Shown one piece after another: positions 3,950-10,777 of a stretch of DNA of 64,000 nt. The translations under genes were made by a program, and so were the position numbers. Source of the DNA: Chitinophaga pinensis (GTDB lineage: Bacteria; Bacteroidota; Bacteroidia; UBA4408); the NCBI GenBank assembly GCA_945861665.1, contig CAMAVS010000010.1, positions 1-64,000 of the forward strand. The letters run 5' to 3'. The notes below the pieces were generated by a model that saw only the letters and a list, made by a program, of their open reading frames with translations, made no database searches and was not told the DNA's origin. Every line of letters starts with the position of its first letter. Within the stretch, counting starts at the first letter, position 1.

Positions 3950-5731
3950 ATGAAAATAAAAAACGTATTACTTTTTGTTCTTGCTATATCAGTTTTTCAG
4001 ATTGCTACTGCCCAACATCAAGCCCATAAACATTTCAGAGATTTACCTGTAAGTTTATTGATTGGTTTCGATGAAAAAGCAGCCATTCAAACAATGATTG
4101 ATAAAAAAATTCCAGAATCTGATAAAGCGGGATATATGAGTTATTTAAAAAATGCTTATGTTATTCAACAGCATCCTGATTATAAGTTTGGTGTTGATAA
4201 ACCTACCTATAAGAAGAATGGTGGTTTAAGCATATTGGGTAATCCTGAATGTAACAATATGAGCTTTGAAGATACTAATTTTGTTGGTTGGGTTGGGCAA
4301 ACTGGTTCAGGTCCGCAAGTTCCAACTTGGAATGGTGGGATAATGAATATATTGAATGCGGATGAATATAATCCACTTTCACGCCAAACAATGCTAACTA
4401 CACCTCCCGGGAATAATGATCCAGCAAATGGTGCTTTGGTTGGTTGGGATTCAGTTGCAATAAACCCAATAACATTAAAGTCTGATATTCCTTATTTATG
4501 TCCAGCAGGTGGTGGAGTTTCGGTACGTTTAGGAAATGCAGTAAATGGAGCAGAGGTTGAAAGGCTTTCTTATTCTTTGTTTGTTTCTCCTTCAAATACT
4601 GGATTTACTTTTCTTTATGCCGTGGTTTTGGAGAATCCTTCAGGGCATCCGACCAACGCTCAGCCTTATTTGAGAATAAGTGTTACTGATTCACTAAATC
4701 AACCTGCAGGTGGCCCTTGTGGGATATACTCTGTAACAGGAGATTCGGCTGCTTTTGATACTGCTTTTGTTCAAAGTCAGGGAGGTGCAATTGTATACAA
4801 AAAATGGACTTTAGGCGGGATTGATTTATCCCCCTATGTAGGTCAAGTAATAACATTAACATTTCAAACAGGTGATTGTGATTATGGCGGTCATTTTGGA
4901 TATTCTTACATTGATGCAAGTTGTTTTAACTTGAAAGGTGATGTAGTGAAAACTTTATGTCCGGGCGATACTACCGCTTTATTGGTCGGGACTCCAGGGT
5001 TTAACAATTATCAATGGAAAGATCCTAGTGGAAATAATATTCCGGCTCCAGAAGGCACAAATGATTCATTGCGTTTATCTCAGCCTATAGAAAATACAGT
5101 TTATACACTTGTAATGACTTCTACTGCGGGCTGTGCTTCAACGGTGACTATTACAATACCTCCTTATCCATTGGATACCTTGGAAATAACAACCACTTTT
5201 TGTGATGGTGACACAGCAACAGTTCTTCATGCGCCAAAAGGATTAAGTGGATACCAATGGAATATGAATGAAATAGATTTGGGAGGAGAAAATGCTGATT
5301 CTATTACCATTTACGACATTAAAAAAATGAAAGATTATACCGTTGTTTTTTTGGTCAACGGTTGTCGTAGAAAGGCAAGAACCATAATTCGTAAAATTAC
5401 TGATGAGTTGTTTAATCCTAAAGCCTTAACAAACATATTTACTCCTAATGGAGATTCTAAAAATGATCGCTTTTACCCATACAACCATTTGTTGATTACA
5501 CAAAAACAAATTGACTATTATGCTGAAGCGTTTAGTGTAAAAATATTTGATAGATGGGGTAATATTGTATACGAAACAAGCGCTAGTTATATAGACGGTT
5601 GGAATGGTAAAAACAAAAATGGGAAAGATATGCCGGATGGAGTTTACTATTGGATGTCAGATTATAAGCCTCGCTGTCCGATTGACGCAACATTGGTTGA
5701 ACATAAAGGTTTTGTTCATTTAGTGAGATAA
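3950..5731 (+). CDS. Secreted protein with T9SS type B (gliding motility-associated) C-terminal domain
   Basis: 593 residues. A signal peptide of about 21 residues ends at ATAQ. The middle holds a cysteine-containing jelly-roll-like region and two Ig-like segments with the repeated YQW pattern. The last 90 or so residues are a CHU_C/type B sorting domain: NIFTPNGDSKNDRF, IFDRWGNIVYE, GWNGKNKNGK, DGVYYW and a final HKGFVHLVR. In this family the domain sends the protein across the outer membrane via T9SS. The ligand or substrate is unknown. It has its own 252-base leader after cysN and is closed by a strong terminator. Confidence 0.88.
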   Translation: MKIKNVLLFVLAISVFQIATAQHQAHKHFRDLPVSLLIGFDEKAAIQTMIDKKIPESDKAGYMSYLKNAYVIQQHPDYKFGVDKPTYKKNGGLSILGNPECNNMSFEDTNFVGWVGQTGSGPQVPTWNGGIMNILNADEYNPLSRQTMLTTPPGNNDPANGALVGWDSVAINPITLKSDIPYLCPAGGGVSVRLGNAVNGAEVERLSYSLFVSPSNTGFTFLYAVVLENPSGHPTNAQPYLRISVTDSLNQPAGGPCGIYSVTGDSAAFDTAFVQSQGGAIVYKKWTLGGIDLSPYVGQVITLTFQTGDCDYGGHFGYSYIDASCFNLKGDVVKTLCPGDTTALLVGTPGFNNYQWKDPSGNNIPAPEGTNDSLRLSQPIENTVYTLVMTSTAGCASTVTITIPPYPLDTLEITTTFCDGDTATVLHAPKGLSGYQWNMNEIDLGGENADSITIYDIKKMKDYTVVFLVNGCRRKARTIIRKITDELFNPKALTNIFTPNGDSKNDRFYPYNHLLITQKQIDYYAEAFSVKIFDRWGNIVYETSASYIDGWNGKNKNGKDMPDGVYYWMSDYKPRCPIDATLVEHKGFVHLVR

Positions 5732-5798: not shown

Positions 5799-6935
5799 TT
5801 ACTTGTTTTTTCCATTGAAACCGAAAGAGGTTCCAAAGCGTATTCCATCTTTTCCAGGAATAACGTATATATTAACAGGAATATTTAATTTGCCCGACTT
5901 AAATGATTTTCCAGCAGCCAATACAAATGAGCTGTTTAAATAAGTGCGACCTCTGCTATCTAACCTTGTTATGAAGACTGGTTCAGGTTTATTATAAGGA
6001 TTTCTTTGATTCCATTCTTCGGATAGTTGCCAGTCGTTGTTTGAATCATAATACCCCTTCGCTTTTTTAACAAGACTAAATGATGGCCCAAAGGCAAGCT
6101 CCCAGCCACTTTTGTTCGACCTTATTCCGTGCATAAACGTAAACGAAGGAATAAAAAGCCCTTGATCTAATCCTGTTACCATTGGAATGAATTCGAATAA
6201 TGCTTGTATATTAGCACTATTCAAATATTGTTTTTCAAATTGATAACCAAATTGAAACATAACTGGTACAGCTCCATATCCACCTTGTGTAGTAGGAGAT
6301 TGAAGTATTTTTGCGGTAGTTCCTGTAAATACAGTTGCTCCCATTCTTGGTCCATCCAAACGTAGACGGTTTTTTGAAGGGTTGTTAACAGCATTATCGA
6401 AACTGTTTTTTATCGTTAAGGAAGCAACTGTTGCTTCTTGATTAGGCAATGAAAACATTTGGTTAATCGTAACTGATATCATAGACTGTATTTCTTTCTG
6501 CAAGTTTAAAAATTCTGTTACCTGAGACTTTTCAATTGTTTCAGTTTTTACATCTATAAGCCTAAGTGAAACAACTATCTTTTCTCCCAATAGTTCAACA
6601 TTTCCTGTGAACATTTTTTCTGAATTAATAATCTTGCCAATTTCCACAAGGCATATTTTACCATAGCAATTATTTATTGTAAGCTTGTTTTTTTCTACCA
6701 CATTCGCAACATCGTATTTGTCCATTACTTCAAATTGTTGAAGTTTATCCAATTCTATTCTCACTAAATTTCCCATTTGTACCTGATCCATTGTAAGACC
6801 CTTCATATCAATATTCAGTACAGTGAGTCTTGGTTTTGAACCTGCATTTTTTTCTTGTGCAAAAGCAGTAGGGCAAAATACTGCAGTTACCATAAGTATC
6901 AATGATAAGACAATGGTTTTGGTTTTTGTTTTCAT
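5799..6935 (-). CDS. Exported protein of unknown function with a CsgG/LpoB/TolB-like N-terminal region
   Basis: 378 residues from the ATG at 6935. An in-frame start at 7007 would overlap the upstream gene and push the signal peptide (TKTKTIVLSLILM to PTAFAQ) inward, so I chose the later Met. Residues of about 35-170 (PRLTVLNID, ELDKLQQFEVMDKYDV, a Cys pair in NNCYGKICLVEIGK, VVSLRLIDVKT) resemble the fold in CsgG, LpoB or TolB N-terminal domains, in which an oligomeric protein senses or helps assemble envelope parts. The rest is strand-rich and ends in a FGTSFGFNGK-like segment. Probably cotranscribed with the gene at 6964. Function not recognised. Confidence 0.6.
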   Translation of the reverse strand: MKTKTKTIVLSLILMVTAVFCPTAFAQEKNAGSKPRLTVLNIDMKGLTMDQVQMGNLVRIELDKLQQFEVMDKYDVANVVEKNKLTINNCYGKICLVEIGKIINSEKMFTGNVELLGEKIVVSLRLIDVKTETIEKSQVTEFLNLQKEIQSMISVTINQMFSLPNQEATVASLTIKNSFDNAVNNPSKNRLRLDGPRMGATVFTGTTAKILQSPTTQGGYGAVPVMFQFGYQFEKQYLNSANIQALFEFIPMVTGLDQGLFIPSFTFMHGIRSNKSGWELAFGPSFSLVKKAKGYYDSNNDWQLSEEWNQRNPYNKPEPVFITRLDSRGRTYLNSSFVLAAGKSFKSGKLNIPVNIYVIPGKDGIRFGTSFGFNGKNK

Positions 6936-6963: not shown

Positions 6964-7485
6964 TTAATTATTTTTTCTAATTCGATAGGATACTCCAGCA
7001 GATGCAAAATAAGGGTAACCTAAACCCGCTTCAAGGTTAAGGGAGATTGATTCGTTAAGGTAGTAACGTGAGCCTATCAATCCCTGCAGTTGGTATTTTG
7101 CAAAATCAAACTCTTCACTATCATAAGTAAATCCTGCAGCTAAACAGGAATAGATATTTATTGAAGGCTTATTGATCCAATTAACCAACAAACGAACACG
7201 AGCATTTGCATAATTTTTTCCATAATAATGTGCTTCTGTACGATTACGGTAGTTTTCGAACTCTTGGTACATAAAGCCCAAGCCAATCAAAGTGCGCTTT
7301 GACAGATGACGATCTACATTTATATTATAGCCCCAATAATCTGGGATGTCATAGTGTACCGTTTGTGAAATAGATTTTGCATTAATTCCCCAGCCCCCGG
7401 TTATGATTAAATCATTTTTTTTGTTTTGAGCATCAACCCAATTTATTGTAAAAAAGAGAATTATAGGAAGAAGTGTTTTTTTCAT
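6964..7485 (-). CDS. Small outer-membrane beta-barrel-like protein, unknown function
   Basis: 173 residues with a signal peptide (MKKTLLPIILFFTINWVDAQ) and then alternating strands rich in aromatic residues (GWGINAKS, YWGYNINVD, LIGLGFMYQEF, LNLEAGLGYPYFASAGVSYR), the pattern of a small porin-type or OmpW-like barrel. It lies 28 bases upstream of the 5799 gene on the same strand, so the two likely form a unit. A 219-base region with a repeat array and a promoter for the divergent regulator separates it from the 7705 gene, so a shared regulatory region is plausible. Confidence 0.6.
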   Translation of the reverse strand: MKKTLLPIILFFTINWVDAQNKKNDLIITGGWGINAKSISQTVHYDIPDYWGYNINVDRHLSKRTLIGLGFMYQEFENYRNRTEAHYYGKNYANARVRLLVNWINKPSINIYSCLAAGFTYDSEEFDFAKYQLQGLIGSRYYLNESISLNLEAGLGYPYFASAGVSYRIRKNN

Positions 7486-7563
7486 TGTTTTATTATTGAT
7501 GAAGCAAAAGTAGTTCGGCTTAAACTATTACTAAAACGGATAAATGCAAGCCTATTTATTTTT

Positions 7564-7640
7564 TTTGCAGGATTTGCAATTTTGAAAATAAAACAGTGAA
7601 AAAAGTGTTGTATTTGCATTTTTTGCAACTGCAATTTGCA
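7564..7640. repeat. Cluster of five TTTGCA hexamers in a divergent promoter region
   Basis: TTTGCA occurs at 7564, 7573, 7613, 7622 and 7635, all on the plus strand, within 77 bases. The last copy overlaps the -33 TTTG box of the promoter for the 7705 regulator. Paired spacings of 9 and 9 bases (7564/7573 and 7613/7622) suggest an operator. The role is inferred; only the repetition is seen. Confidence 0.5.
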
Positions 7641-7665
7641 TTAGGTGCATTTTTTACTTAATTTG
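7635..7665 (+). promoter_or_regulatory. Promoter of the helix-turn-helix regulator gene
   Basis: TTTG at 7635 and TTAATTTG at 7658 are separated by exactly 19 bases, matching the Bacteroidota sigma-A pattern (TTTG, 19 bases, TAnnTTTG) with one mismatch. The ATG lies 39 bases downstream. Confidence 0.5.
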
Positions 7666-7704
7666 TATGCACAATTATTATTTAATCATTAATTTTTACT
7701 GCTT

Positions 7705-8860: not shown

Positions 8861-10777
8861 ATGGGAAAAATAATAGGAATTGACTTAGGAACAACCAACT
8901 CTTGCGTTTCAGTAATGGAAGGTAACGAACCGGTTGTAATAGCTAACAGTGAGGGTAAAAGAACTACGCCTTCAATAGTTGCTTTTGTAAATGGTGGCGA
9001 ACGTAAAGTAGGAGATCCTGCAAAGCGTCAAGCTATCACGAATCCAACAAAAACAATATTCTCTATAAAGCGATTTATGGGTGAAACTTACGATAAAGTG
9101 GCAAAAGAAATTGCTAGAGTGCCTTATTCAGTAAAAAAGGGAGATAATAATACCCCCCGTGTAGATATTGATGGAAGGTTGTATACTCCACAAGAAATTT
9201 CTGCGATTATTTTGCAGAAGATGAAAAAAACAGCAGAGGATTATTTGGGAACTGAAGTAACTGACGCTGTTATTACTGTACCGGCATATTTTAACGATGC
9301 TCAACGTCAAGCAACGAAAGAGGCTGGGGAAATTGCAGGATTGACTGTTAAACGTATTATAAATGAACCTACGGCTGCGGCTTTAGCTTATGGTATGGAT
9401 AAAAAAAATAGGGATATTAAAATAGTTGTGTTTGATTGCGGAGGCGGAACACATGATGTGAGTGTTTTGGAACTTGGTGATGGGGTATTTGAAGTAAAGT
9501 CAACTGACGGTGACACACACTTGGGTGGAGACGATTTTGATCACAAGATTATTGATTGGTTAGTGGCAGAGTTTAAATCAGAAAATGGAGGTTTAGATTT
9601 AACAAAAGACCCAATGGCTTTACAGCGATTGAAGGATGCTGCTGAAAAAGCGAAGATAGAGTTATCAAGCACTACAAGCACAGAAATAAATTTACCATAT
9701 ATAATGCCGGTGGATGGTATCCCAAAGCACTTAGTAAGAACATTAACACGCTCTAAGTTTGAACAATTGGTTGATGATTTAATCAAGCGAACGATAGAAC
9801 CTTGTAAATCGGCAATGAAAAATGCAAACTATACCATTGCTGACATCGATGAAATAATTTTAGTGGGGGGCTCAACTCGTATTCCTGCTATACAGGAAGC
9901 CGTTGAGAAATTTTTCGGTAAAGCTCCTTCAAAAGGTGTAAACCCTGATGAGGTGGTTGCAATTGGTGCTGCTATACAAGGTGGTGTACTTACGGGTGAA
10001 GTTAAAGACGTATTGTTATTAGATGTTACTCCACTTTCGTTGGGTATTGAAACAATGGGGGGTGTTATGACTAAACTGATTGAGTCTAACACAACAATTC
10101 CGACTAAAAAATCAGAAACCTTTTCTACTGCATCGGATAATCAACCTTCAGTTGAAATACACATTATACAGGGTGAACGACCAATGGCAGCCCAAAACAG
10201 AACCATAGGTAAGTTTCACTTAGATGGATTGCCACCCGCACAACGTGGCATACCTCAAATTGAAGTAACTTTTGATATTGATGCGAATGGTATTTTAAAT
10301 GTTTCAGCTAAAGATAAGGCCACTGGTAAATCACAGAACATTCGTATTGAAGCATCTTCGGGATTGTCAGACGCTGAAATAGAGAAGATGAAAAAGGATG
10401 CAGAAGCAAATGCTGAATCAGATAAAAAAACAAAAGAAGAAGCAGACAAAATTAATCAAGCTGATTCAATGATTTTTCAAACAGAAAAACAATTAAAAGA
10501 ATACGGTGATAAATTACCTGTTGAAAAGAAAGAGCCAATTGAAACTGCATTTGTGGAGTTAAAAACAGCTCACGGAGCTAAGGATATAGCAGGAATTGAC
10601 AGTGCTCTTGAAAAAATTAATGCAGCTTGGGCCGTTGCATCTGAAGAAATGTATAAGGCTAGCCAAGGTGGTGCACAAGCAGAACCTGATGCAACAGCAG
10701 GAGGGCAACAATCAGCAAGCAGTAATACAGAAGCTACCGATGTTGATTTTGAAGAGGTGAAGGAAGATAAAAAGTAA
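8861..10777 (+). CDS. dnaK: Hsp70 chaperone DnaK
   Basis: 638 residues, normal for the family. The N-terminal ATPase begins GIDLGTTNS (residues 5-13) and contains [26 protein letters not shown] and the phosphate-binding GGGT. The substrate domain follows ([14 protein letters not shown], then strands and a helical lid). The C terminus ends in an acidic [13 protein letters not shown] tail that can dock co-chaperones. The usual DLGGGT is DCGGGT here, a mild change. grpE and dnaJ are not adjacent; the gene is single and is closed by a terminator. No CIRCE-type inverted repeat was seen in the 136-base leader. Confidence 0.98.

Follow-up and report, generated by a model that had tools for sequence, protein, structure and literature searches.

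A conserved inverted repeat as the candidate operator of a Bacteroidota regulator with a Cro/CI-type helix-turn-helix and a PLD-like domain

Introduction

The FAM83 proteins are human proteins in which the PLD domain is degenerate, and they are not known to contain a helix-turn-helix (HTH). Promoters of Bacteroidota have a -33 box, and class I activators such as CRP bind farther upstream without overlapping the -33 and -7 boxes, which is the usual place of an activator. The -7 box occupies positions -12 to -5, as given in excerpts of one study (PMC9723704). Among regulators with an effector domain, the TrmB proteins are archaeal and sugar responsive; in excerpts of their description (PMC4158304), they are linked to palindromic promoter sites and to repression, activation, and autoregulation.

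Here we describe a bacterial locus in which a gene for an HTH protein with a PLD-like domain is separated by a short spacer from two genes on the opposite strand. It lies in the window, i.e., the whole stretch of 64,000 nucleotides of Chitinophaga pinensis that was analyzed. A sequence-only reading of the window had proposed that direct TTTGCA repeats in this spacer form an autoregulatory operator that also reaches the divergent pair. We compared the spacer, the regulator, and the neighboring genes across genomes of the class.

Results

TTTGCA hexamers are clustered in the regulator's spacer

The 219-base spacer (7486 to 7704) was found to hold TTTGCA on the plus strand at 7564, 7573, 7613, 7622, and 7635, so that the five copies in 77 bases and the two pairs at a spacing of 9 were seen exactly as the sequence-only reading had described them. 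The hexamer was not enriched in the window as a whole (93 occurrences versus 96.7 expected), and the spacer was the sole place in the 64 kb where any hexamer with at least three different letters started five times within 77 bases. At least five TTTGCA copies were present in 12 of 5,000 dinucleotide shuffles of the spacer, and some hexamer with at least three different letters reached that number in 41 of 5,000. TTTGCA is thus unusually clustered in this spacer. The 2.49-Mb genome contains five occurrences of TTTGCANNNTTTGCA, two of them inside the spacer, and no occurrence of the same pattern read backwards; two of the other three places were checked and both were in open reading frames (ORFs), the third being locus L047. 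The features of the locus are collected in Table 1.

Table 1. Features of the regulator locus and the divergent operon (window coordinates)
Feature	Coordinates	Strand	Remarks
Second divergent gene, 378 aa, exported FlgO/LpoB-like	5799..6935	-	Read from ATG at 6935
First divergent gene, 173 aa, outer-membrane beta-barrel-like	6964..7485	-	PF13505 E 0.002, below cut-off
Divergent operon -7 box TACTTTTG	7505..7512	-	Exact TAnnTTTG, conserved in relatives
CCGTTT element	7534..7539	-	21 bp upstream of divergent -7 box; conserved spacing
Dyad D1, TTTGC-N7-GCAAt, two reported hexamers	7564..7580		51 bp to divergent -7 box
Dyad D2, TTTGC-N7-GCAAc, two reported hexamers	7613..7629		Relatives' conserved place
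Weak third dyad D3, right arm GCATT, contains fifth hexamer	7635..7651		Two mismatches
Regulator's candidate -7 box TTAATTTG	7658..7665	+	One mismatch to TAnnTTTG; weak
Regulator gene, 339 aa	7705..8724	+	Cro/CI-type HTH (about 9-73) and PLD-like domain (about 79-322), no HKD

An inverted repeat of one spacing recurs upstream of regulator orthologues

Relatives of the regulator (E up to 1e-20) were detected in 139 of the 395 genomes of the class. Among the matches listed, 148 places were used and three were left out; 146 gave upstream regions, and after removal of one for its insufficient length, the set comprised 145 regions (at most 250 bases each) from 37 families. The inverted repeat TTTGC-N7-GCAA was present in 47 of the 145 regions and in 20 of the 37 families, compared with a mean of 0.8 and a maximum of 2 in shuffles, while every other spacing (N3 to N6 and N8 to N12) was present in 0 to 2 regions. 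Counting both orientations raised the number to 52 of 145. A second set consisted of 59 loci from titled contigs from which repeats of the first set had been removed; 30 of these had the dyad in either orientation (shuffles, mean 0.64 and maximum 3), and other spacings were again found in 0 to 2, with the reservation that both sets sample similar bacteria, so that they are not independent in phylogenetic terms. Among the 38 sites listed, 28 preceded the inferred start codon by 82 to 98 bp; D2 is 92 bp ahead of the regulator ATG. Checking spacers across relatives for conserved sites did not refute the proposed operator, though the dyad was present in neither orientation in 93 of the 145 regions, so that many members of the family have lost or altered either the site or the autoregulation.

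These results also bear on the possibility that the cluster arose by chance in an A+T-rich spacer, as might be supposed from the shuffles in which some hexamer appeared five times or more. One spacing was kept over 20 families and was found again in the further loci, which refutes this explanation and leaves it practically no weight.

With these loci in hand, the repeated unit appears better described as the inverted repeat TTTGC-N7-GCAA, each 9-bp hexamer pair corresponding to one dyad with a T-rich spacer. An operator of direct TTTGCA repeats at a spacing of 9 could claim that TTTGCA-N3-TTTGCA (either strand) was present in 27 of 145 loci versus 0.02 in shuffles and that, once both patterns were given as many fixed bases, the direct form was about as frequent as the inverted one (37 versus 33 of 145 loci and 20 versus 25 of 59). 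That equality arises because the spacer is T-rich, which is also why a direct hexamer pair is visible at all. The dyad was present without the pair at 26 of 145 and 13 of 59 loci, whereas the pair was present without the dyad at only 1 of 145 and 0 of 59. Since the pair was almost never seen without the dyad, the direct-repeat model was set aside and is regarded as unlikely. In terms of the inverted repeat, D1 and D2 are separated by 49 bp, and D3 found no support of its own among the relatives.

The site is associated with genomes that carry the regulator

The 16-base form of the dyad, TTTGCRWTTTTTGCAA, occurred 142 times in the 395 genomes. Thirty-one of these 16-mers, from 14 families, preceded the beginning of an orthologue match by 56 to 201 bp; the other 111 were not at a regulator gene, and 35 of these came from genomes in which no regulator was detected. 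Such a large share of sites away from the regulator gene, along with the presence of several intergenic sites in some regulator-bearing genomes, would be expected if the dyad were recognized by a different transcription factor of broader function, with the regulator gene as only one among its targets. However, the 16-mer was present in 66 of the 139 genomes with the regulator versus 31 of the 256 without it. The 111 other 16-mers gave 104 loci for examination (three pairs share a locus, and four were not fetched), and the intergenic share was 56 of 73 loci in regulator-bearing genomes versus 9 of 31 in the others (Fisher P = 7e-6, which is optimistic because the genomes are related). Sites inside ORFs made up most of those in genomes without the regulator (22 of 31, versus 17 of 73 in genomes with it), and the sole site at a FlgO/LpoB-like gene in a genome without a detected regulator came from an assembly that is 74% complete. 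A general factor is accordingly considered improbable, and these distributions point to the regulator itself as the protein that would recognize the dyad.

A search of the organism's own genome with up to 3 mismatches gave 309 matches, compared with 125 for the backwards pattern. Thirty loci were fetched and 28 were judged; 25 were in ORFs, one of which (L214) was 17 bases after the first possible start of its ORF, and the three intergenic loci were D2 of the window, a place upstream of a SixA-like ORF, and a place in front of an ORF of 497 aa. The 28 loci judged in this loose-match regulon search thus gave no second target that was convincing.

A FlgO/LpoB-like gene recurs next to the regulator and its site

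A homologue of the first divergent gene was present in only 1 of the 145 upstreams, i.e., its own. Homologues of the second gene were divergent to the regulator at 42 of 145 loci, in 19 families, a count that is rough because many upstreams reach only about 730 bases and because one case (G119) rests on 21 residues; the best second-gene match was in the opposite orientation at 0 of 145 loci. The gene was divergent at only 23 of the 52 dyad-bearing loci versus 19 of the 93 without the dyad. Away from the regulator, 14 of the 56 intergenic 16-mer loci in regulator-bearing genomes preceded second-gene homologues (families f11, f12, f38, f41, f44, f53, and f60); six of the 14 came from f12 alone, and three from f41 were weak (E about 1e-21 to 1e-26). 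One further such target was in the incomplete assembly mentioned above. The 14 loci and this additional case indicated that the site tends to follow the target gene. The comparison thus gives good support to the gene for the FlgO/LpoB-like exported protein as the regulator's recurrent partner and candidate target, so that the regulator family, earlier remarked to have no assigned ligand or target, now has a candidate for the latter.

The name FlgO/LpoB-like reflects weak matches of some second-gene homologues to FlgO or LpoB, all under the cut-offs (best FlgO E value, 0.0011, at L274). No CsgG/LpoB/FlgO-type Pfam model was matched above its cut-off, the window protein had no Pfam match, and a profile search of solved structures with the divergent protein found nothing.

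Other genes were seen near the site in particular lineages. Dyads were located upstream of AMP-binding enzymes in three f11 genomes (L246, L251, and L255; two of the three proteins were scanned) and upstream of CDP-alcohol phosphatidyltransferases in two f37 genomes (L300 and L301), and at L020 a CDP-alcohol phosphatidyltransferase is the regulator's divergent neighbor. These neighbors are hints of a connection with lipid metabolism. An MFS protein recurs near the 16-mer in three f41 genomes, one protein having been scanned. In the window itself, the gene at 3950-5731 encodes a protein in which a type IX secretion signal domain of the CHU_C type (PF13585) was identified, and a dnaK-like gene (judged by eye; 8861-10777) starts 136 bases past the regulator stop on the same strand.

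The site lies at recurring distances from the target's promoter

The divergent promoter of the window has the form CCGTTT-N21-TAnnTTTG, which was found at 22 of 145 loci in 8 families and in 0 of 30 shuffle sets; spacings of N15 to N20 and N22 to N26 were not found among these loci. The CCGTTT element may belong to a second factor's site rather than to a -33 box. In many relatives, at the place of window positions 7534-7547, a GC is conserved at a distance of six bases from CCGTTT (plus strand, AAACGG-N6-GC).

Forty-three loci were selected by this promoter element (22 from the first set and 21 from the second), and 37 of them held 41 dyads with at most 1 mismatch. Thirty of the dyads were 100 to 104 bp from the -7 box, 6 were at 131 to 134 bp, 2 at 162 to 165 bp, 2 at 51 bp (D1 included), and 1 at 42 bp. 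The window has two of these distances, D1 being 51 bp and D2 100 bp from the divergent -7 box. The shorter of the two was also found at homologous genes elsewhere. Twelve FlgO/LpoB-like genes were examined, 11 from the 14 described above and one from a genome without a detected regulator, and at 11 of them a TTTG box was located 51 or 52 bp from the dyad, which matches the gap of D1; the full TAnnTTTG was at this distance in only 3 of the 12, and the three f41 targets, which are outside the 12, had no TTTG at 51 or 52 bp. Among all 56 intergenic loci, TTTG was present at gaps 51/52 in 23, the next best adjacent pair of gaps reaching 15; a peak at gaps 18/19 comprised 15 loci. With the FlgO/LpoB-like targets removed, gaps 51 and 52 (6 and 7 loci) did not exceed gap 19, which was seen at 8 loci. 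The gaps between dyad and TAnnTTTG were also examined for helical phasing (28 family-gap pairs). At 9.9 bp, R was 0.63, and at 10.3 bp, P was about 0.008, but this is only suggestive, because a range of periods was scanned for the best one and a control box reached 0.58 at 9.1 bp.

With the -7 box at -12 to -5, a dyad 51 bp away would have its center near -72, a usual place for an activator. On the other side, a TAnnTTT box followed the start of the regulator-side dyad by 24 to 26 bp in 15 cases among the relatives, so that this dyad overlaps the regulator's own promoter, the usual place of a repressor. For the window, the claim that the last hexamer is also the -33 box was not confirmed; the plus strand of the spacer has no exact TAnnTTTG for the regulator and offers only TTAATTTG, 19 bp after the TTTG of that hexamer.

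The same distances could be read differently, with the protein as a pure repressor of the divergent operon as well as of its own gene and the upstream sites acting by looping. D1 and D2 lie 49 bp apart and the distances to the divergent -7 box form steps (51, about 102, 132, and 163 bp), which would suit looping and activation alike; yet elsewhere the dyad often precedes a TTTG box by 51 to 52 bp and so stays outside the -33/-7 region. Pure repression is thus a possible but less likely account, and activation of the divergent operon from D1 is preferred.

The regulator combines a Cro/CI-type HTH with a degenerate PLD-like domain

The AF2 model of the regulator (pLDDT, 90.5) has an N-terminal five-helix HTH (helices 9-21, 28-36, 40-47, 55-65, and 69-73), the fold of which matched 1lli (Z = 8.3; 3.7 Å; 76 aligned), ClgR (Z = 7.7), and PrgX (Z = 7.4) in VIA. 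The window protein matched HTH_3 with an E value of 0.045, below the cut-off; at E 0.01, HTH_3 was matched by 22 and BetR by 35 of 46 members. Foldseek ranked Rgg2 and PlcR first (E 0.04 to 0.05; TM about 0.16), and most VIA rows for RRNPP proteins (Rgg, PlcR, and PrgX) span about 65 residues, which is the HTH. None of these was among the best 50 rows shown for the C-terminal domain, and an RRNPP receptor, with its TPR-type C-terminal domain, was set aside as less likely since the C-terminal domain alone matches PLD folds.

Modeled alone, the C-terminal domain reached a pLDDT of 93.0 and a pTM of 0.89. Its best 50 VIA-align rows were all PLD-superfamily or PLD-like chains, a group to which PPK, TrmB, and F13 belong; the best alignment had a Z of 9.6 (rmsd, 3.6 Å; 146 aligned), on a scale where Z under 8 means a possible common arrangement, and Foldseek alone was weak (best E, 0.016). 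No Pfam match was obtained with three C-terminal domains up to E 10. Of 46 full-length proteins, only the G195 member contained the HKD motif (HxKx4D), and there it was at residue 81, far from its expected place near 252-258 (by eye). A PLD fold with the HKD missing, as in TrmB-type regulators, makes the degenerate PLD-like domain the likely sensor of a ligand, as judged from the models.

Two genomes have the regulator gene in neighboring copies on one strand (G114:C1:3789312-3791268 and G216:C1:764348-766289). In family f12 (e.g., L128, L131, and L133), the regulator gene follows the end of an mnmG-looking gene (by eye), and the upstreams also hold sequences like TGTTCCACGTGGAACA, which resemble parS.

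Discussion

Comparison of the sequences gives good support to the dyad as a conserved site that is connected with the regulator. It likewise supports a target that recurs and a distance between dyad and -7 box that is repeated at this target. We consider it probable that the array is the operator of the regulator, a putative dimer that would repress itself, activate the divergent envelope operon, and sense a ligand. The operator region would consist of two good inverted repeats, D1 and D2, and the weak D3. The regulator, probably as a dimer with its Cro/CI-type HTH, would bind TTTGC-N7-GCAA; at D2, in its own promoter region, it would repress its own gene, and from D1 it would activate an operon encoding first the beta-barrel protein and then the FlgO/LpoB-like exported protein, in response to a ligand sensed by the PLD-like domain without HKD. 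We infer the division between repression and activation from the position of the sites alone. The autoregulatory operator reaching the divergent pair, as first proposed, is thus favored by the dyad at orthologues and by the second-gene homologues, with its unit corrected from the hexamer to the dyad.

A wider and rather doubtful proposal concerns envelope homeostasis. The regulator would represent a Bacteroidota one-component family that activates envelope genes and represses itself, its degenerate PLD-like domain responding to a ligand related to lipids or phospholipids. If so, sites at fixed helical steps would stand upstream of activated envelope genes, namely, the FlgO/LpoB-like genes and, in some lineages, genes for CDP-alcohol phosphatidyltransferases or AMP-binding, acyl-CoA-synthetase-like enzymes. 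For a widespread, unannotated Bacteroidota regulator, the analysis thus proposes where it would bind, which gene recurs as its target, and what fold its putative sensor has.

Searches of open-licence papers, judged by titles and abstract starts, turned up neither this regulator nor a protein that pairs an HTH of the Cro/CI type and a PLD-like domain. As far as these searches reach, a one-component regulator with its operator is of a known kind, and the domain pairing, the site, and the target are new. The regulator resembles FAM83 DUF1669 and other pseudo-PLDs in having a PLD fold (FAM83B, Z = 8.7; 3.7 Å; 141 residues) without a full HKD, but, unlike the human proteins, it bears an HTH. Like TrmB, it joins a DNA-binding domain to a C-terminal effector domain, with a PLD-like fold that matches TrmB/TrmBL2 chains at Z 7.3 to 8.1, and, as far as the TrmB excerpts go, palindromic sites are found at promoters in both. 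Unlike TrmB, which has a winged HTH and PF11495, the regulator has a Cro/CI-type HTH and no C-terminal Pfam match and is from Bacteroidota. The winged TrmB HTH (PF01978) was absent from the 8 Pfam families matched by the 46 members at E 0.01, and the effector PF11495 was not matched by three C-terminal domains up to E 10, the likeness being one of fold only. The sites differ as well, TrmB having TACT-N3-AGTA in those excerpts versus TTTGC-N7-GCAA here. With the Cro/CI (XRE) repressors, the regulator shares an HTH fold that matches lambda repressor, PrgX, ClgR, and 3op9, a dyad site, and its own gene as a putative target; it differs from them in its PLD-like C-terminal domain and in upstream, activator-like sites at other genes.
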